Translations under genes and position numbers: made by a program | Shown here: piece after piece, positions 1,794 to 36,261 of the stretch | Layout of the letters: every line of letters starts with the position of its first letter | Numbering within the stretch: position 1 is the first letter of the stretch | Notes under the pieces: generated by a model | Databases searched by the model: none | The model's input: the letters and a program-made list of their open reading frames with translations, nothing else | Told to the model about the DNA's origin: nothing | Source of the DNA: Pontederia crassipes | Taxonomy: Eukaryota > Streptophyta > Magnoliopsida > Commelinales > Pontederiaceae | Length of the DNA: 64,000 nucleotides | NCBI GenBank assembly: GCA_030549335.1 | Contig: CM060195.1 | Span: 50,005,975-50,069,974 of the forward strand | Reading direction: 5' to 3'

Positions 1794-4700
1794 ATGAGTT
1801 CCGCTCTAAGGAGTCCGAACTATCGGTTTCTTTTCTGGTTGCTTAGTTATAAACTTTTAAGTACTTAAGCAGAATGGCACCATAAGAATCCGAGAACTTA
1901 CCCCAGTTTCAGCGAAGTGTCAGAGCTGTAATCGTTGCCTTGGGGCGCTGATGCAGAGAGTGTCGAAGCATTGGTCACTGATTCCGATGATTGTCCATCT
2001 TCGTAAGTAATACTTTCAGACTCATGGGGCGCCACCACTTGTTTCTCTATCGTGGTTATCTTGGCCACCTGCAACTCCAAAAGTAATCTTAAGTTCTTTT
2101 AACGAGGAAGAGGCAGATGACTTGAGAGTTTATGTAAAGGAACTTATACTATTAACAGAAAGTATTACTTGTTGCCTGAGTTTCTCGTTTTCTTCCATGA
2201 GCCTCTTTCCCTGTTTGTAAGAATCAAGTTTGTATATCAATCACAGTTGAATAAAATGCATATTGTGGACGTCAACGCTAAAACTTCGCGTTCATTGCAA
2301 TTTTCAGTTTTCCTGTTAACTGATAGACTCCCAAATCAGTAAAAACTAGTTTGATTTCAGATAGCTTACTAAGCAATCTACGTGCTAGATTTTTTCAATA
2401 AGAACTCAGCTGTGCTCAAATAGAGTATCCAAATTTTCATGAAATTGCAAGAAAAAAATCAATATATTAAATCTGATACCATAAGAAATCTAATACCGTA
2501 TTCTCAGATAACAAGCTTCATTTCTGCCATTAGTTGGAGTGTAAACCAATTCACAATTTGACTAGTTATAAGCTAGGGATTTTAACTTTTGTCAAGATGA
2601 TTAATTAAGGCTCCAATCCTGTAAGTGACGGGGATAATATTATTTTCAGATGGTCCCTTTCTCTGAATTTTCTAATGACTTCATTCTTGTATTAAGTAAA
2701 CTTTTGTCTCTCACTAATACTGGAAAATGTTCGTCAATATGTAAGATTTTCAAAGTTGATGGACATGCAATATATATTCACCTTTTCTTGGAGACTGCTA
2801 ATCTGCTCCATGATTTGCGCACCCTGAAATTGCAAAATCAAAGAGCTTGGTAATAACATTAAACAATTTAAATGCAGGGAGAGGATTTAAAATCTGAAGT
2901 AAGCAATTAATGTCAATGCCTTTTTATCTAGGACGCGCTTTAATCCTGTTTCGAGTGTCCTCTCAAGCAGCTGCAACTCATGAATGGTTAATCCATGGAG
3001 CTCTTCTCCTCTCATCTGCCTGTAGTTAATTAAAACTTAGAATGGCAACTACCAAGGAAGGACACATTTACGAGGACTTGCAGTGTGGAAGACATCAAAT
3101 ATGCATAGTGAAAGTATTGCACGAAGGAAACACCTTAGCCGAAGGCTTGTTTCTGTGACCTGCTGAGTCAAGTTTGCATACTCGCTATTCTCTACCTGAA
3201 GCCAAACAGACATCCACTGCCCATTAGTTTTGCTGATAAGAAGTAATTCTCCAACTGTTAGCTAGCTAGCAACTCAACGGCATGCATGCATGAATATTCA
3301 TTAGATAAAGTTATAACTTCTGATATATGAGTTGCCACTATCTAAGACAAGTATTCTTTCCAGAACTTGTTCTGAGTGGGATTATGATAGACTTCGGTTT
3401 CTTCAGCATAAATGTTCATAGATGTTAACTATCAATTACTTCAGCATAAATGTTCATGGCACTGCTCGTCGGTAAATTATCAGTTTTATCACAATCAGCA
3501 ATTAATTGGAAACACACCAGAGAATAAATATTACAACGAATTTCGCCCATTGTTATTTTGACAAAGTTTTATACTAGGTAGTTTCAGATATCAACGATAA
3601 AAATAAAACGTATATGTCCCTTGTGACAACTACACACACATATATATCACATTAAAATGATGTGGACAATGAAGCTTAATTAAGAGCAAACTTACATTTA
3701 AGTCAAGAGATGGTTGCTTATCTTTCTGTAGGTTCTTGGAGTGCACATTGTACTTTTCAAGTATCTCGTTCATACTTGAAGACAAGAAATAAAAGGAAAA
3801 GAAATTTATAATTAAGTAAACATTTGATATAAATGACTAAAATAAAGATGTGGCATATATGAAAATTTGAATAACAATTTTATGAAATCAAAGGAATTGG
3901 TATTTCAATTACCAAGTGGATACTAACTGAACTAGATGATAAATATAAACAATATAAATGAATAAAAGTCAACTAATTGCGCAACAAACATTATTTTCTT
4001 TGAGAAGGCAACATACATTATTACATGATTTTTGAATTATTTTTTGTTATAATATGATATGTAATGCTTGCAATTTTCTATTTCCCTATTTTAAAATTAA
4101 AAATAAATAATAGAACTTCATTTATAGCCGGTCCCAAGCTCGGATAAAGGAGGAGGGTTGTGTTAGGCCCCGACAGCCAACATAAAATCATGTCGAATCT
4201 TATGAACATGGATCAACGAATGCGTCGTATGATCCATGTAGCCGACCCCACCTAGTGGGATAAGGCTTTGTTGTTGTTGTTGTTGTAATAGAACTTCATT
4301 TATTATGCTAAAGTTTAATGATTTTCTTCAAACAAGAATAATTTACCAAGCAATGAGGAATTTGAAATTAGTAAAGACATTGCATAAGCAATATTTAAAC
4401 CAAAAATATTAGATGTAAATGAGAATTTCAAATGGCTGCTCTAAAATCAACAGATGCATCTAAAAATACTAATGAAACTAAGGCATTTACTTGATTATTT
4501 ATATCTCATTTTTACAAAACGGTATCATTTTGACATGTCAAAGATTAAAACACTAATGTCTGCATCAAAAAATTTTTTATAGACAAGCCAAACTTGTACA
4601 TATAATCCGTTGATGCCAAAAATACTTGTTTGTTTGTCCGATAAGCATCAGTTATAATTTGCTAGTTTTCCAGTGAACTTGCTTGTAATTCTAATGGCAG

Positions 4701-7029: not shown

Positions 7030-10000
7030 CTATTTATTACTTTGCAAAATTACATCATGATACAAGATATTGAGAAGATTCGAAGGGAGATCCTCATCAC
7101 AAAAAATTTTAAATCCTTGGATCCTGCCCATGTTAGCCAAGAGATCAGCAGCTCTATTACAAATTCGATAACAATGCTGAATGCGAATAGCATCAAAAGT
7201 GTCCATGAGCGCCCAAATAGAGTGGACAATATTATGGATCCGCCAAGGACAAGCACGCCTTCTGTTGATAGTGTTCACCAAATCCTCCGAGTCGACCTCC
7301 GCAATGATGCTTTTAAGGTCTCTCCTGCTACATTCCTGCAATCCTTGAAGCAACCCCCAAGCCTCGAGCTCAATGATGTCGTCCGCGTCGCGCCTACAGC
7401 AACCTGCAGCCACAAAGGTGTTGTTAGGGGTACGAATAATGTAGCCCACTCCCCCCGGCCCGGAAGAATCAACAAAGGATCCATCCGAGTTAATTTTGAC
7501 CCAAGGATCAGCCGGGGGCTCCCATCGGACACTAACTGTGTCCAGGGGGTTCATTGCCTCAGGGACATGAGTGATCACATATTTCTTATGAGCAGCGACA
7601 GCACGCTCCCAGACATTAAGCACGGTTGCTTGCTTGGAACTAAAGTGTTTATCATTTCTTGCAATCCAAAGACCCACAAGCAAAAAGCAAAGAGAGACCG
7701 AAAAATAAGTTTAGATCTCCGGTCGAGTTCCTGACCTTCCTTGATCCAATCCCCAGTGTGCCAGGAATCCATAAACTTAAAAGTATAGTTAATATTCAGT
7801 TAAAGAATAAACCATAATTCGCAAGAAAATGGGCATTGAAAAAACAAATGCGCATTTGTCTCAGTATTGAAACCACAGAAAAGGCAGTTAGCATTAAGGA
7901 AATGACCAAAACGCAGAAGAAAGTCCTTTGTCGGGAGGCGGTTATACATTAACTTCCAAAGGAAAATAGAAATTTTATGAGGCACTTTAATCTTCCACAA
8001 AGAGTTCCAAGCAAGCCGTCCAGGTGCTAATGTCGAGCATGAGTCACTGCAAAGAAATCGATGTACAGAGTTTGCATTAGCCAAGCCGTTAGGATCCGCA
8101 ATCCACACCCATGAATCATCACTGGCAATGGTAGCAGGTAGATGTATTGCAAAAATTCTAGAAACCAAGTGGGGACCAAAACAGTTATTAAGCAAATTAA
8201 CATTCCATACATTATCAATAGTGAGATCATGAACATTTTGATGCAAGGATAGCATATCGATATTAACAAAAGTAGGTTTGAAAGCAAATGGAATACCAGT
8301 GGCCCAAGGATCCATCATTATGCTAGTATTATGCCCATTGCCAATTCTTTTTGAGAAGTCATTCCTCAACTCACCAACAGCATCTCTAAGGATCCTCCAC
8401 GACCAAGCAAGACCAGAGTTCTGGCTAGGCTGAAGGTCCAGGGAGTGGCCAGTAATGCTAGACCAAGGGTGAAGCTGGCCGTACTTCTGTGTTACAAGAG
8501 TGGTCCAAATAGTATTATCCCCATTAAGCAGTGCAAGAATCCTTTTGGCCAGAAGGGCCAAGCGGATGTGGGTTAGCTTCCTAATACCAAGGCCTCCTGC
8601 CTCCTTAGGTTGCTGAACAATGTTCCAATGAAGAAGGTGTAAGCCTTGCTTACCCTCAGAGTCCCATAAGAAACCTCGGGTGATCTTCTCTAGGCAATTG
8701 ATCACGCCAACAGATATATGAGTCACATCTAATGAATACATAGGAATATAAGTTATGACTGATTTAATTAGAGTAACTCTACCAGCCTAATTGAGAGAGC
8801 ATCTCTTCCAACCAGCTAACCTTTTGGAAATTTTTTTAATGGCTCCCCGTTGGTTACTGGCTGGAATATGTTTGTATGAGATATGGACACCTAAGTATGT
8901 GAAAGGAAAGGATCCAGCATTCATATTCAAGAGTTGTTTAATGAGTTGACTCCTGTGCACGGATAACTTAGTTGGGAGGTATAGCTCAGACTTTTGAGGG
9001 TTGAGTTTTTTGTTTGTTAACATACCATAGAGTTGAAGTGCTTTCTTTAAATTAATACAATTCTTCCTAGTAGCAGCCACACAAATGAGGAGGTCATCAG
9101 CATAAGCAAGGTGGCTCAAACTGAAGTGTCCAAGGCAAAAAGGTTTGATGTTACCACTAAGGACCTCTTGATTCAGGATGGAAGATAGGACTTGAGATGT
9201 TAAAATGAACAAGTAAGGGGACAAAGGATCCCCCTGTCTAATACCCTGTTGGCTTTGAAAACTATGTGACAGGGCCCCATTCACACAGCACCTAAAGTTG
9301 GGAGACCTAATACAAGCTAAAATTCAGTTAATGAACTCCGGAGGAAAGTTCATGCTGTGTAAGATGGACTCAATGCCGTACCAAGAGACCCTATCAAATG
9401 CTTTCTCCATGTCTGCCTTAATGAGCATATGCTTATGTCTACCCTTACCCAAAGAGTGCACAAGCTCCTCGGCAGCAAGGATATTATCGTGAATAACTCT
9501 ACCTTGCATGAAAGCAGATTGGGCAGGATCAATTAAGGAAGGGAGCATAGGCTTGAGTCTATTAGCCAGTAGTTTTGCAATGACCCTATAGATTATATTA
9601 CAAAGTGAGATTGGTCTGTAGTCATTCACCACTTTTGGTGACTGCTTTTTACGAATAAAGATTAGGGTGGTCCAGGTCCAAGCATTGGACATCCGCCCAC
9701 TGCAGAAGAAGGATTGGATGTCTCTAGAGAGCCTAGGCCATATGATATCCCAATACTTTTGATAAAACTCCACAGTGAAACCATCAGGACCAGGAGCCTT
9801 GCTAAGAAGCATTTGCCAGAGTGTATCCTTGATTTCTTGGGTGGTAATAGTTGCTAACAAATTAGAGTGGTCCCTAGAGTGAATTTTAGGTAAAGCTGGC
9901 CAATTATCGATATGTATTCTGGGGGTATTTTCTGCCTTCCAAAGGTTTCTATAGTGATTAACAAACATGGTCTTAATTCCCTCCTCATCCTCCACCATAG

Positions 10001-11138
10001 CCCCCTCATCATTGATTAACATTGATATCTTGTTTGTTCTCTGCCTAATCATTGTGCTTAGATGGAAGAAACGGGTATTCCTATCCCCATCTTTCACCCA
10101 TTTAACCCTAGACTTGGACCACCACTTCATACTAATTTGATGTCTCAAAGCCGCATGCAGGTGGTAAACCGCTCTCAACTTGCCACATTCTTCCTCAGAT
10201 AACCCTGACTTACTATCCTTAAGTTCTAACTGTTGAATTTCCTCAAGAACTAGCTCAGCCCTGTGTTCCAATCAGCCCAATGAATTTTTGTTCCAGTATA
10301 AGGTTTTTTCCTTAATAGCCCTTAAAGTCTGAGTAGTTGAACTGTGGGAGTTTCATTCACGTTGCACAATTGCTTTGGATTCACTATAATTAAATCAGAA
10401 ATGTTCGTACTTAAAATGTTTAGGTCGCTTTTTGTTCACATTTGAATGAAAAAGCAATGGGGAATGGTCAGAAGGGCATCTAGCAAGAGATTTCAATATC
10501 ATATTTGAATAGGAAGTGACCCATTCACTGCTGACCAGGACTCTGTCTAGCCTACACAGAATTCTAGCTGCCCCCTGCCGGTTATTACACCAAGTGTGCT
10601 GGGGTCCAATTAGGTCGACATCCACAAATCCCTGACTAGTAATGAGATCCTGAAAGGTTCTGTTTGACCTAGTTGGGCTGAAAGGTTTACCCCCTCTCTT
10701 ATCAGTAGGATGCAAAATAGAATTAAAATCACCTAAAAGTATCCATGGTATGTCATCTAAATTTATATGTCCTAGCTGTTCAAATAACATGGAACGTTGA
10801 ATTGGAATTGTACTAGCATACACGTATGAAATCAAGGAAGAAAAACCGCCGACACTAATGATCGCGTGAATTACCTGATTGTCAGTGCTAATAAGAGTAA
10901 TCTGAATTTCCTGATGCCGCCAGGCCAGGAGAATGCCACCCGCCGCGCCATCGCCCTCCTGATAGCAGCCAGACCACTGATTGCCCAGCCGCCGTATAAT
11001 TTTGTTCCCCTGTACTTTAGTCGCATGTGTTTCTAGAAGTAAAATAACATTCGGATGGTACATGTCAATAATCTCCCAGAGCCGATCCCTAACCTTGCTC
11101 CGGTAGGCCCCTCTACAATTCTAAGATAGAATCTTCAT
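7030..11138 (-). pseudogene. L1 ORF2 (endonuclease, reverse transcriptase, RNase H), decayed
   Basis: Makes and integrates the element's cDNA in intact relatives. In order on the minus strand: APE endonuclease (about 11063-10395; LLLETHA, GDFN, LDRVL, SDHSP), reverse transcriptase (about 10100-8800; ISLCNIIYRVIAKLLANRL, DMEKAFDRV, QGIRQGDPLSP, AYADD), zf-RVT (about 8000-7800; CLFCGFNTETNAH), RNase H (about 7560-7090; NSDGSF, ELEAWG, EVDSED, ADLL, so all four acidic residues remain). Stops in the main frame lie at 11123, 10397, 10355, 10274, 9326, 8789 and 7802; the frame shifts near 7690-7700 just before LVGLWIARNDK. Each stop is explained by one C-to-T or G-to-A change of a Trp or Gln codon. 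The full length would be near 1370 codons, normal for plant L1. Confidence 0.93.
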
Positions 11139-13043
11139 GGATCGACACCCGGTTGCCCGGCCGTCACCTGCATAGCAACAGTAGAAGGTGGTAGTTTACC
11201 TTTCTTTGATTTCTGAGTCCTCATGATCTGTTGGAGAGGTGGCAGAAGGGAAGGAGGCACCCTCCGCTTGATTCTACTTTTCTTTTGCTCCTTCCGCAAC
11301 GCCGGTACAAGATCCTCATCTGGTTCTTCACCCTCATCTTCTATTTCCACGTCGCGGGAGATCTGGCCCTCCTCCAGCTCGCAGACGACCTCTGAAGGGA
11401 CGCTGAGGGTGAAACGTTCACGAACCTTCTCCGCCAATGCATCATGTGCCATGGGCGTCACAGACTCAGACAGTACCTGTGCCTGCAGGGGGTTAGTCGG
11501 AGGAGGGCCGCAATTTGCCCTAGCAGAATTAGCAGGAGAGAGGGAGGCAGCTAATGGAGGAAAGGCATCGTTAAAAGTCTCGGTGATGGCGTGTGGGGCA
11601 CGTGGCAGGCGATCCAGCGGGGAAGATGTATCACGATCGTTGAGAGAAGTTGTATGCACGCCACTTGTCATCATCGGGGCCACCACTTCGTCTGAGAAGC
11701 AATCAGAGCCGTTGTGAGTGCTTTCCAACCCAAGATCAGACGTTGTACCCCTGCCGTTGCTACCATCTAACGGATCATTAGGGTATCCGTTAGGCAGTAG
11801 AGACCGCGTGCGATCTCCATCGTCAGATCCAGGCTCATGGTTGAGATCGAGGTCCGCGAGGGCCGCGAACCGACTCCCCGAACCCACCGGCTCAGCAAGC
11901 TGGACCGGCCGCCGCGGTGAAGCATCGGTCCGTCCATGGTCAGCAGCATCCACGCCGGTACTAACAGCGTCCAGTGATCTCCCTACAGGACCAGGGCATT
12001 GGAGGTCACCTCTACGTCGACCGGGGAATGACCGGAGCCATGGCCCGAACAACAGTACCTTCTTCCCCTCTGTTCCGACGGCCGCCGACGCATTACAGCC
12101 TTCGAATCGGTGACCTACTAAACCACAGTGAAAGTAGAAGATTGGCAGATTATCGTATGATACACGTTGAAAATACCTACTGCCATCCGGATTCCGCACA
12201 CAGACTCCTTGCTTGACCGGCCGGCGTAGATCCATGTCGATGCACACCCGCACTTCAGATCCCATATCCCCAGAGAGCGTGGATTCGTCAACTGCTAGAG
12301 TAGTGCCGAAGCATCCAGCAATACGCAGGACGGAGCTACGATTCTAGAGCTCGAAAGCAGGTCACCCAAGCGGATCCAGATCGGCAAGTTTGTAGGTAGG
12401 TCACCGGTCGCGCGGAAGAAAGGTCGAGGCTGGGAAACGACAAGCATCAGACCTCTGATGCTCCAAGGGCCACCTGTCAGCACAAGCATGCGTTCCTGCA
12501 GACATTCAAAGGAGAAAACGTAAAATCCCCTTCCCATTTCCTTGATATTCACAGCCTTCTTGGTCTGCCAGAGCAGCGGAAGCTCCTGCCGAAGAGACTC
12601 AAGGGGAAGATGTCCGGCGACCCTCTCAACAAGGCATCGCTTCAGTTCTTCTGACCGGTCAGCTACATCTTCCGCGAGTATAGCCACTTCTTCCGTGATT
12701 TCCTCCTGTAGACATCTGAGCTGATGCGAGGAGATGAGGTCTGAGGTGCGCCTCACCTCCCGTCCGATGTTCACACCACGGCGATCTATCCTTGCCACAG
12801 CAGCATCTCTGTAAGATTGTTTGTGGGGGAGAGAGGGGGGTGGAGGCAGTGGTGGAGATGATGGAGGGGGATTTTGGAGGTTGCTCGTGGACAGGAACAT
12901 GTTTGAAGGGAGATTAGAGGTGGAGAGAAGGGGGGGAGGAATAGGGAAGGAGAGGGGGGGGGGAGGGGGGGGGGGAGGGGCGAGCGGCTCCGGCGAGGCG
13001 GGCGATCCACCGGAGCTAGGGTTCCCGCATCGCCCTGACTCAA
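11135..13043 (-). pseudogene. L1 ORF1 (gag-like, DUF4283/zinc knuckle), decayed
   Basis: RNA-binding partner of ORF2 in plant L1 elements. Three reading frames follow each other: a Pro-rich N-terminus (to about 12890), a DUF4283-like core (12900-12295; ends FFRATGDLPTNLPIWIRLGDL), and a C-terminal part (12265-11135; GSEVRVCIDMDLRRP, then a knuckle in which the first Cys is replaced, FYFHCGLVGHRFEGC). A frameshift near 12340-12355 separates core and C-terminus, because the downstream frame reads back into RIAGCFGTTLAVDES. A second shift may lie in the poly-C tract at 12957-12977 (Pro codons). The first ATG is uncertain. Confidence 0.85.
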
Positions 13044-20492: not shown

Positions 20493-23400
20493 AATATCCA
20501 CCTTGACTTGATTCATCTTCAGAGCACAAAAGCACGCCACGTCGTCGCCAGTCCCATCTTGAAGCTATTACCAAATATTTATGTTAAGCAAGTCCAAACA
20601 ATGTTGGAACTTGCCATAAGGAACAAATTTGATGAACATATCAGCTGGATTATTTTCAGTGACAATCTTCTTCACCTTGATCCTCTTCTCAGTGCGGATG
20701 AAGTGATATCTGACATCAATGTGTTTAGTTCTTTCATGATGTACTTGATCCTTGGCTAAATATATTGCACTCAGACTGTCACAGTGCACTATAGTCTGCT
20801 CCTGATGTAATCCGAGATCTCCAACTAAGCCTTTTAATCAGATACCTTCCTTGACAGCTTCTGTCAGTGCAATGTATTCAGCCTCTGTGGTGGACAATGT
20901 AACTGATGGCTGAAGTGTAGCCTTCCAACTAATAACTGAACTGTCCAAAGTGAAGACATAGCCTGTCATAAATCGTCTTCCATCAACATCTCCAGCATAA
21001 TCCGAATCTGAGTACCCTGCAACCAATCACTATTTATCACTTCTGTATATGAGGCCAATATCAGATGTTCCTCTCAGATACCGAAAAATTCGCTTCACTG
21101 CTTGCCAGTGCTCCTTTCCTGGATCGCTCATGAACGTCTGACAACACTGACTGCATGAGCAATGTCTGATCTTGTGCAAACCATGGCATACATCAGACTT
21201 CCAACTGCACTAGCATATGAAATCCGAGACATGTACTCCTTTTCTGCTTCTGACTTTGGTGCGAAGGCAACAGAAAGATGAACATTTGCAGCTAATGGAG
21301 TATTCAAAGGCTTCGCTCCAGACATTCCAAACCTGGATAAAATCTTCTCAATATAACTTTTCTGAGATAAGAAGAGTTTACTCTGTGCGCGATCCCTTAG
21401 AATTTCCATCCCCAGAATTTTCTATGTTGCACCAAGATCTTCAATGTCGAATTCTGCACTGAGTAGCTTCTTCAAATTCTGAATGTCTGTCATGTCTCTG
21501 GCAGCAATAAGCATATCATCAACATACAAGAGCAGATAGATGGTGGAGCCGTCATTCACCTTCTTGTAATATACACAGCAATTATAGAGACTTCGACTGA
21601 ATCCCTTACTGATCATGAAGCTGTCAAACCTCTTGTACCATTGTCTGGGAGACTACTTCAAGCCATACAGAAATTTTCTTCAGACTACAAACTTGACTCT
21701 CCTTTCCTGAAATGGAGAATCTCTCTGGTTGGCTCATAAGAATGTCTTCTTCAAGTTCTCCATGGAAGAAAGCAGTCTTCACATCAAGTTGCTCGAGCTC
21801 TAGATTCTGATGTGTTACAAGAGCAAATAGCACCATGATAGAAGTATGTCTGACAATAGGTGAGAATATCTCATTGTAGTTTACACCTTCTTTCTGACTA
21901 TAACCTTTAGCAACCAGCCGTGCTTTGTATTTCGTGACTTCAACTCCTGTAATTCCTGCTTTCTTCTTGAAGATCCATTTACAGCCAACAACCTTCCTGC
22001 CTTTAGGCAACTTGACCAACTCACACGTCTGATTCTTGTGAAGAGATTCCATCTCCTCACCCATAGCAGCGATCCACTGTCCAGATTCGGCACATGTGAT
22101 GGCATCACTATAAGAGGACGGCTCTAGGGACTCCACCTCTTCAGCTACCTGTAGTGCATAAGCAACCGTGTCCTCGAAACCATATCGCTTAGGAGGACCC
22201 ACTTCTCTACGAGAATGTCTAGCAGCAATTGACTCCTCTTCAGGTTGCTCATCAGATTCTTCACATTCTGATTCTTCTTCTTGATGTGATCCTTCAGCAT
22301 CATCCTCAGTTGGAGTGATTTCAACCTCCACATGTTTATTGACACTCTCTTCAGCCTCCACCTTCAACTGAAGCATTGATGCTTCATCAAAGGTCACGCT
22401 TCTGCTGTGGATGACTTTGTGTTCTGAAGGAGACCAGATTCTGTAGCCCTTCACTCCTGCACCATATCTCATGAACACCCCTTCTTTGGTCCTTGGCTCC
22501 AACTTTTCTTCACTGACGTGATAATATGCTGGACAATCAAAAACTTTCAGACAAGTATAATCAGCAGGATTTTTTTACCATACCTCAGTTGGAGTCTTGA
22601 GATCAATCGCAGTCGCCGGACTTCGATTCACCAAGTAGCAAGCTGTGTTAACAGCTTCAGCCCAGAATGTCCTATTCAGGCCAGCGTTAGAGAGCATGCA
22701 CCTTGCCCTCTTCAGAAGTGTATTGTCCATTCGTTCTGCAACTCTATTCTATTGTGGAGTATCCCTGACTGTGCGATGTCTGGCAATGCCTTCATCTTTG
22801 CAGAATTGGTCAAATTCAACAGAACAGAACTCCAAACCATTGTCAGTGCGAAGATGCTTTACTTTCTTCAACGTCTGATTTTCTACCAGAACCTTCCACT
22901 GCTTGAAGGCCCTCAAGGACTCATTCTTGTGTTTCGTCATGAATACTCAAGTCATCCTCGAGTAGTCATCAATCACATATAGGAAGTATCTCGCACCTCC
23001 TAATGATGGAACACGAGAAGGACCCCAATAATCGGCGTGGATGTAGTCAAGTGTCGCCTTCGTCCTGTGCACTGCCTTGCCAAACTGAGACCTTCGCTGT
23101 TTGCCGAATACGCAGTGCTTGCAGAAACTAATTTCAGATATCTTCTTCTTTCCTAGAAGACCTCGTTTGCTGAGGATATTCATCTCGTTCTGACTCATAT
23201 GCCCAAGCCGCATGTGCCATAATTTAAACCTATCTCATTCGGATGAACTAGCAACTGCAGCAACGCCAGAGACTGTCTTGCCTTGTAATACATACAAGGA
23301 CTTCTGTCTGACTCCCTTCAGAACCGTAGCATCACCCTTCATGACCTTGAGGATGCCTCCAGCAGCATTGATCTGACACCCTTTAGAATCGAGGACTCCA

Positions 23401-24480
23401 AGTGATATCAAATTCTTCTTCAGTTGCGGAACATGGCGGACATCTGTCAGCGTCCTCACAAGATTGTCATAAGTCCTGATCTGCACAGAACCGATTCCAA
23501 CTATCTGATAGGCTGCATCGTTGTCCATGATGATGTTTTCATCATCAATCTTCTAATAAGTTGAGAACCACTCTTTATTCGGAGTCATATGATAGGAACA
23601 CCCCGAATCCAAAACCCAACTATCTGCCAGACATCCTTGATCAGAAGCAGCCAGAATTAAATCATCTTCGAAATTCTCAATTTCCTGTGCCACCGCAGCG
23701 ACGGAGGCCTTCTTCTTCTTCGGACAATTCTTCTTCCAATGACCTGGTTTCTTGCAGTAATTACAGATGTCTTTCGCAGTGATTTTCTTCTACTTCGACT
23801 TAGATTTCTTTGAATTCGAGGACTGTCTCTTCTCTGCGGTCGATATCAAACCCGCGGCCTGAGTCTCTGCAGAATTTTCAGATGTCCTATGCCGAAGTTC
23901 ACGAGTATGAAGACTCGATCTTACTTCTTCCAGACTTATAGTTTCCTTCCCGATAATCATAGATTGAACGAAATTTTCATATGATGGAGGAAGCGAAAGT
24001 AACATAATTATGGCAGCATCTTCATCCTCGATCTTAACATCGATATTTCTGAGTTCCATCAACAAAGAATTTAACTGATCAAGATGTTCCTTCAGAGGGG
24101 TACCTTCCTGCATGCGGAGAGAGAACAGACGTTGCTTCAACAATAACTTGTTAGTGAGAGACTTCATCATATATAGACTCTCGAGTCTCAACCGCAGACC
24201 GGCCGCCTTTTCTTCATCTGCGACCTCGATTATCACCTCATCCGCCAGACACAACAGAATCATCGAGTGCGTCTTCTCCTCCTGTGCCGCCAAAGTTGCG
24301 AGGTCGATATTCTTTTCTTTGCCCTTCGAGTCTTCCTCCTTTGACTTGTTCTTCGACACGTTTGAGAGCGACGTCCAGACTCCTTGTTGCTTCAAAAGCG
24401 CCCGCATCTTGATCTGCCACAACCCAAAACTGTTACTGCCGTTGAACTTCTCCACGCTCACGTTGTGCGATGTCATCTCC
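20493..24480 (-). pseudogene. Copia gag-pol region (fossil)
   Basis: Gag of the UBN2 type at about 24476-23790 (starts MTSHNVSVEKFNGSNSFGLW), zinc knuckle near 23765 (CNYCKKPGHWKKNC), protease near 23600 (DSG), integrase about 23213-22650, RT about 22110-21420 (YVDDML motif), and the RNase H and C-terminal part about 21030-20568. Integrase before RT marks Ty1/copia. The coding region is broken. Confidence 0.92.
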
Positions 24481-24527
24481 CTGCTGATCGAGAATCGCTG
24501 ACAAACTCTAAGGCTCTGATACCAGTT

Positions 24528-24771
24528 TGTTACGAAAAGAGGGAGAGATGGATCGTACGAAATACAGAAGAACGCGAAGAAGAAAAATGGCGGCGGCTTT
24601 TTGTTATAGAATAATGATGATTACAAGGATAGGTCTCTATCTAGACCCCTATGGAGTTTATATAGGCACTCCCTTTGACAGATGATAGCGAGACCTCCGT
24701 AGGAGAATTCTGCTGAAGCGCCTGATTATGTAGGGGGACCAACTGGGTTCATATTCAAGGCATTATTAACA
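24528..24771 (-). repeat. Copia LTR copy 3 (5' LTR)
   Basis: 244 bp with TGTT...AACA ends, followed internally by the initiator-Met primer site. Contains a TATA-like GTTTATATAGG shared by all three LTR copies. Confidence 0.93.
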
Positions 24772-34900: not shown

Positions 34901-35131
34901 CCTTTCCTAGAAGCTACGTATACTTTTTGATACGATCAAAATGCAAATCAAATTTAGGTGATAGTTGAATGGGAACAAGAACAGTGGTAATACATTCTTT
35001 AATCCGATGAACAAAGAACAAATTGACATATCCGAGTAAATATATAAGATTAAAAGATAAAAGATACAAAAAACCAAGTAAGCATAAAGGATAAAAGATA
35101 CAAAAGAAATATTGAACTGGGGTATCCAAAT

Positions 35132-35233
35132 GGGATCAGAGTTACTGGCTTGGCAATTCTCCTGAAGAGAACTGGTAATGAAGCGCTCAGTATGTTCACG
35201 GTCGATCATCTGGGGAAAGGCTCATCATTTCAC
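35132..35233 (-). ncRNA. C/D-box snoRNA-like copy 1 (most distal)
   Basis: Minus strand: C box ATGATGA (35228-35222), internal D' CTGA in CATACTGAGCG, a short hairpin (GTTCTC...GAGAAT), D box CTGA (35139-35136). About 60 bases around the C box and D' are the same as in the other two copies. The hairpin region is the most divergent of the three. Confidence 0.6.
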
Positions 35234-35337
35234 CATTGAAGGAAATCCCCAACATTTAAAAGAAAATAATGTTCGCACAAAAAATTTAAGCAGAAAACAA
35301 GAAACTCTATAGATTCACAGTATATATAAGATCCGAT

Positions 35338-35435
35338 TAGATCAGAGTTACTGGCTTGGTGTTCTCCAAAGAGAACAAGTATAAGCGCTCAGTATGTTCA
35401 CGGTCGATCATCTGGGGAAAGGCTCATCACTTCAA
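35338..35435 (-). ncRNA. C/D-box snoRNA-like copy 2
   Basis: Minus strand: C box GTGATGA (35430-35424), D' CTGA, a perfect internal hairpin GTTCTC-TTTG-GAGAAC, D box CTGA (35345-35342). GATT before the C box and AATC after the D box could form the short terminal stem of a C/D snoRNA. The base next to the D box is preceded by GCCAGTAACT, the expected place of a guide. Confidence 0.65.
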
Positions 35436-35514
35436 TCTTTGAATCGAAAAAAAATCCATCGAAGGTTCATAAAAGATTGAAACGTTATTCTGAAAGTAGT
35501 ATTTTGGAGATCGA

Positions 35515-35613
35515 TGCGATCAGAGTTACTGGCTTGGTGTCCTCCAAAGAGAACGATATTAAGCGCTCAGTATGTTCATGGTCGATCATCTGGGGAAAGG
35601 CTCATCACTTCTG
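35515..35613 (-). ncRNA. C/D-box snoRNA-like copy 3 (nearest the promoter)
   Basis: Minus strand: C box GTGATGA (35608-35602), D' CTGA, hairpin GTTCTC-TTTG-GAGGAC (one G-T pair), D box CTGA (35523-35520). The sequence before D' (CCGTGAACATA) and before D (GCCAGTAACT) is conserved in all three copies, as guides would be. I could not match either guide to rRNA from memory. Confidence 0.65.
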
Positions 35614-36107
35614 TCTCCCAATCGGAACAAAAACCATCTAAAAGTAGAAAATGAAAATTAAGACTTAATGGCTCGGATTCTACCTACCTCAAGAGAACGA
35701 ACGCAATTAAAAAACAAAAACGAACGAGGAATGAATAATCAGATATAGCAATAAGGTACAGAAAATTCAGGGAATAAATCGTATAGCAAAATACCAAGAA
35801 ACATGCAAGATGGCCGGCGGTGCAAGGCCGGTCTACATAAAAAAAGATGACCGGAAGTCACGACTTTGGCGACGGGCCATACGCGGCGGGGAAGAATTTT
35901 CCCGACGCGATATAACTTCTCAAACGCAAACGGATAAAATTTGAAGCAGCAGACGAGGGAAGCAGAAATATCAGAAAGGTAACAATTGGCAGTGGTGTTG
36001 CCAAAACCACCGACGTCGCCGACACATGGCGTAAGGAGACGGCGGCCGGAATGGGAGATGAAGACGACTTGAAGGGTATTAATAGCGTTTCTGGGAGGAA
36101 GACGGGG

Positions 36108-36261
36108 AAACCCTAACCTCGGATCTTAAACTTGATCCAGCGGTCGAAAGAGGACCACGTCATGGTGTTGGCAAACGAGATGTTATGGTGGATTTGTCAG
36201 GCGGCGGCAATTAGAGACTTTATCTTATGTTGGGCTTGCTACGTGCTTTATTTAGTGGGCC
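36108..36261 (-). promoter_or_regulatory. Telo-box and site-II promoter of the snoRNA host gene
   Basis: Plus-strand AAACCCTAA at 36108-36116, TGGGCT at 36231-36236 and TGGGCC at 36256-36261. On the minus strand the two site-II elements lie 115-150 bp upstream of the telo-box. No TATA box was seen. Confidence 0.6.

Follow-up and report, generated by a model that had tools for sequence, protein, structure and literature searches.

Three small RNA units stand in a row on the minus strand of Pontederia crassipes contig CM060195.1, within the 64,000-nucleotide stretch analysed here (the window). A scan of this 64 kb window with Rfam 15 gave three matches above the gathering score, all to RF00149, the box C/D snoRNA family snoZ103. 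Their E-values (1.4e-16, 3.6e-14 and 6.1e-13) rule out chance, and all three units align to the model over positions 1-100 of 100. The units and the conserved elements upstream of them are listed in Table 1.

Table 1. Features of the snoZ103 locus in the window
Feature	Position	Strand	Details
snoZ103 copy 1 (first in minus-strand direction)	35516..35614	(-)	RF00149, 77.9 bits
Parts of copy 1			C box 35602-35608 GTGATGA; internal CTGA 35567-35570; hairpin 35539-35554; D box 35520-35523
snoZ103 copy 2	35337..35436	(-)	RF00149, 87.2 bits
Parts of copy 2			C box 35424-35430 GTGATGA; internal CTGA 35389-35392; hairpin 35361-35376; D box 35342-35345
snoZ103 copy 3	35131..35234	(-)	RF00149, 73.1 bits
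Parts of copy 3			C box 35222-35228 ATGATGA; internal CTGA 35187-35190; hairpin ~35154-35175; D box 35136-35139
Moderately conserved block, promoter to first snoRNA	35783..35880	(-)	identity 0.92 to C14, 0.62 to C10/C9
TATA-like element TATTAATA	36077..36084	(-)	23 bp past telo-box; 4/4 triplet loci
Telo-box TAGGGTTT (AAACCCTA on +), inside GTTAGGGTTTCCCC	36108..36115	(-)	identical in 4/4 triplet loci
TGACGTGG within CATGACGTGG	36155..36162	(-)	identical in 4/4 triplet loci
Two Site II elements	36231..36261	(-)	TGGGCT 36231-36236, TGGGCC 36256-36261 (+ strand letters)

The initial annotation, made from the sequence alone, had described the units as an unidentified C/D-box-like RNA, possibly an orphan or specific to the lineage. 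Its class assignment was right, and a reading of the sequence alone had picked out a real RNA gene. The label of unidentified is dropped, since all three units score 73-87 bits against a gathering cut-off of 44 bits; nor is the RNA likely to be a private invention of the lineage, the family being catalogued in Rfam. The name snoZ103 comes from work on rice. As in the family, the C box, UUUCCCCAGAUGAUCGAC, CAAGCCA and CUGAUC are kept in the units; unlike the family consensus, which has CUGU as the internal box, the units have CUGA, and the length of their hairpin differs from copy to copy. No snoRNA of another family exceeded its Rfam cut-off in the window or in four 9-kb stretches, and a permissive local scan added a single sub-threshold match, to sR46 (17 bits, cut-off 50).

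The strand, spacing, C boxes and terminal CTGA boxes reported earlier for the three units were all reproduced. From C to D box the copies measure 89, 89 and 93 nt, and they are separated by spacers of 89 and 113 nt. Pairwise identities between the units are 0.94, 0.87 and 0.89, whereas the two spacers are identical at 0.54, which is the top of 100 shuffles (mean 0.49). As the units are alike and the spacers lie at the shuffle ceiling, the part that has been kept is the RNA itself, in agreement with the earlier claim that only the candidate RNA is conserved.

We searched the whole genome assembly (1.13 Gb, 43 contigs) with RF00149. It holds at least 13 matches at five places, all 13 over the cut-off; the number is a lower bound, with 52 of the candidates scored. 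Twelve of the copies are arranged as four triplets, one on each of contigs C13 (the window), C14, C10 and C9, and one extra copy lies on C10, 42 kb from the triplet there. Copies are named below by contig and position within the triplet.

Across the genome copies the anatomy of a box C/D snoRNA is well preserved. A C box of the form RUGAUGA and a D box CUGA near the ends were found in 13 of 13 copies, the C box reading GTGATGA in 11 and ATGATGA in two. The internal box (D') is less uniform: CTGA, as claimed for the window, is indeed present in its three units and in 11 of the 13 genome copies, but two copies have TTGA. Kept in every copy are a 28-nt stretch from the C box to CGAC, the sequence TGAACATA followed by C or T and then TGAGCGCTT, and the segments CAAGCCA and AACTCTGA; for this count the copies were located by part of the 28-nt stretch, which recovered the same 13 as the covariance model. 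The description of the RNA as conserved and C/D-box-like is therefore borne out, both by the RF00149 scores and by the boxes, and the 13 copies pin down which letters are under selection, namely the 28-nt C-box stretch, TGAACATA.TGAGCGCTT and CAAGCCA.

The internal hairpin noted earlier folds in each window unit and in all 13 copies, with varying sequence and length (a result obtained without a shuffle control). The sequences flanking the terminal boxes pair better with their own partners than with partners permuted across 12 copies, where 6 of 1000 rearrangements did equally well (mean -5.5 for own against -4.1 for swapped partners, spread 2.8). This pairing is weak in five of 13 copies (-1.2 to -1.6 kcal/mol), and the comparison allowed the pairs to sit anywhere relative to the boxes. 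No C' box was obvious by eye in the copies.

The four triplets form two young pairs, C13/C14 and C10/C9, within which units are 0.96-0.98 alike and spacers 0.80-0.95. When one pair is compared with the other, units that occupy the same position still share 0.82-0.89 identity, while the spacers share 0.55-0.60, about the level of the highest shuffles. In a tree of the 13 copies the position labels cluster (three changes; none of 200 shuffles as low), with each position forming one clade in 36, 1 and 50% of bootstrap trees. It is likely, as far as such sequence comparisons go, that the triplication preceded the older duplication, and we read the cluster as having been kept through two duplications. 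PMC4660826 and PMC5122169 describe snoRNA paralogs as frequent in plants, both within clusters and following genome duplications.

The extra C10 copy opens a stretch, 4.3 kb long or more, that recurs on this contig with 99.98% identity (L020:4681-9001 and L022:4137-8457) and matches the last copy of the C10 triplet (copy 3) together with the DNA beyond it. Either the duplication happened very recently or the assembly is in error here; a search for a telo-box ahead of the extra copy found none.

Upstream of each triplet lies a set of promoter motifs. In all four triplet loci a telo-box precedes the first C box by 412-514 bp and is followed at a distance of 22-23 bp by TATTAATA, which is absent from the TATA words that PMC4660826 uses. 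The sequence CATGACGTGG, upstream of the telo-box, is a possible extra promoter element. According to that study, promoters that combine a telo-box with Site II elements (TGGGCY) in the 1 kb upstream mark plant polycistronic snoRNA genes. This combination is present at C13 and C14, both of which carry two Site II elements; at C10 and C9 the telo-box is kept, and no Site II element was found within 1200 bp upstream of their triplets. The block between promoter and first snoRNA, in which stretches resembling GCGTATG and CGCCA.AGTCGT are largely kept, gave no Rfam match and is probably the non-coding leader of a precursor.

Taken as a whole, the locus is a genuine snoRNA cluster, conserved and of an ordinary kind, whose members all belong to a single catalogued family. 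Its three box C/D snoRNA genes on the minus strand, all of RF00149 (snoZ103), very probably form one polycistronic unit. The promoter motifs, together with an upstream frame that has a late methionine and no Pfam match, point to a single non-coding precursor from which the three snoRNAs would be processed. For transcription, processing, snoRNP assembly and target we infer the following course. The telo-box/TATA-like promoter at about 36077-36162 would drive the synthesis of a single non-coding precursor by RNA polymerase II; each unit, guarded by its C/D kink-turn, would then be excised and assembled into a fibrillarin-type snoRNP, which would pair through the conserved segments with another RNA, most likely rRNA. 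The outcome of such pairing could be guiding of 2'-O-methylation or a placeholder role in ribosome assembly. The short spacers, the single upstream telo-box promoter and the snoRNAs in a row resemble plant polycistronic clusters as described in PMC4660826 and PMC5122169; the locus differs from them in containing one family only and, at C10 and C9, in the lack of Site II elements within 1200 bp.

Alternatively, a protein-coding host gene might contain the cluster, in its leader or in an intron, and release it from there. A stop-to-stop frame of 128 aa (35739-36125) is indeed located just upstream of the cluster, and C14 has an open frame of 126 aa that partly resembles it. However, the first methionine of the C13 frame is residue 108, the C14 frame has none, the longest frames in C10 and C9 reach only 80 and 83 aa, and the 128-aa frame has no Pfam match. 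The frames next to the cluster thus give a protein-coding leader no support, and we regard a host gene as unlikely. The initial annotation had named a dispersed transposon repeat as a finding that would refute it. A dispersed or SINE-like repeat in place of genes has next to no probability: the units do recur, but the at least 13 matches in 1.13 Gb lie at five places, 12 of them within four paralogous triplets, and between the older pairs nothing but the RNA is kept.

A target for the conserved segments would give the catalogued snoZ103 a function; the literature we searched named none. For a search of our own we used as stand-in rRNA the rDNA of another eukaryote (L039), comprising full 18S, 5.8S and LSU model positions 1-1289 and 2711-3401, and from the Pontederia genome itself an LSU fragment, a truncated copy covering model positions 2389-3399 (L052). 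The missing middle of 25S was represented by a provisional plant sequence. The stand-in comes from a record titled as a Dehalococcoidia MAG (JAKUNN010000063.1), in which eukaryotic 18S, 5.8S and two LSU parts are found; these are eukaryotic contamination of a bacterial genome record. The best of 24 LSU matches in the Pontederia genome, 431 bp long, lies in the truncated copy (L052:5945-6761), the others listed being shorter. Fifteen contig stretches of the genome gave no Rfam match and six more no rRNA. The assembly may underrepresent ribosomal DNA, although the search passes over words that are very common.

No rRNA target passed the shuffle controls against the stand-in rRNA, the own LSU fragment or the provisional middle of 25S. 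One reading, to which we give an even chance, is that snoZ103 is a conventional guide for 2'-O-methylation of a site in rRNA, snRNA or another RNA. Guiding is what most C/D snoRNAs of known function do, and of the species' own rRNA the comparison covered only the LSU fragment. In the best single match GAGCCUUUCCCC pairs over 12 bp with GGGGAAAGGUUC, a part of plant 25S taken from the provisional sequence. Single duplexes in general were at shuffle level, 90 of 150 shuffles being as good against the stand-in rRNA and 13 of 100 once the provisional 25S middle was added. We took as the mark of a guide at least 9-10 bp with the target, ending next to D or D'. In this canonical register, followed for copy C13_1 only, the stand-in rRNA offered two runs of at least nine pairs next to D (18S 831 and LSU 1059), but these contain two and three G-U pairs, and next to D' there was no run of at least nine pairs. 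In one U2 snRNA of the genome, none of the best six runs listed ended at a box.

Two single pairings with named sites were considered and set aside. One, of GUGAACA with UGUUCAC in the A-loop of Arabidopsis 25S (U2922/G2923), comprises only 7 bp; on a provisional numbering its register is wrong for U2922, and at this point of the snoRNA the family consensus in Rfam is UGAuuAUA. U2922 of Arabidopsis 25S has no reliable guide according to PMC8053127. The other, of GAUCGACCA with UGGUUGAUC at the 5' end of 18S, has 9 bp including one G-U pair and is at chance level.

Among the pairings the best lead is a two-part one. The reading built on it, a refinement of the cluster explanation that leaves the identity of the genes unaffected, appears doubtful to us: here snoZ103 would be a non-methylating placeholder or chaperone that clamps the peptidyl-transferase region of 25S, working in the manner of yeast snR190. 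Its first arm, CAAGCCAGU, which precedes the D box, matches ACUGGCUUG of the LSU; its second, UGAGCGCUU, located at and after the internal CUGA, matches AAGCGUUCA, which lies 7-8 nt further downstream in the target. The paired site is one that we take to be the peptidyl-transferase region. The arms flank the internal hairpin, which would bridge them, and the pairing is colinear. For 12 of 13 copies this was the top two-part match, whether the stand-in LSU or the own LSU fragment served as target, and both arms lie within segments kept in most copies. Since arm 1 ends four bases before the D box, clamping fits better than methylation.

Against this stands that shuffles were as good in 17 of 150 cases for C13_1, 12 of 200 for C13_2 and 5 of 200 for C10_3, that C14_3 scores 19.3, under the shuffle means of about 20, and that C9_2 has its best two-part match in 18S. 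C14_3, C9_2 and C10_2 are altered at the end of arm 1, the second arm of the Rfam consensus (UGUGCGauu) pairs more poorly, and the longest conserved stretch, CCUUUCCCCAGAUGAUCGAC, is left unused. Moreover, the copies are related to each other and the scheme was picked after the match had been seen.

The precedent for such a mechanism comes from yeast. In PMC8536666, snR190 is described as a C/D snoRNA with two antisense segments, one of them to 25S domain V, and divergent C'/D' boxes; paired with domain V, it serves as a placeholder and does not methylate. A mechanism of this type therefore exists. By comparison with snR190 the pairing of snoZ103 is weaker and not significant. The fuller proposal, that snoZ103 is a bipartite, non-methylating clamp on the peptidyl-transferase region of immature 25S, the functional counterpart of snR190, with triplicates kept through two duplications for dosage, we consider improbable.

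The remainder of the window contains frames with protein domains. Downstream of the cluster, on the plus strand, is a frame with a DnaJ domain (PF00226; 32215-33354), in DNA that is shared at about 92% with the C14 locus. Pieces of a Copia-type retrotransposon (RVT_2, SH3_retrovirus, Retrotran_gag_2) occupy 21624-24620 on the minus strand, and on the same strand frames with zf-RVT, accompanied by a zf-CCHC_4 match below cut-off, extend over 7800-12343 and probably belong to a non-LTR element.
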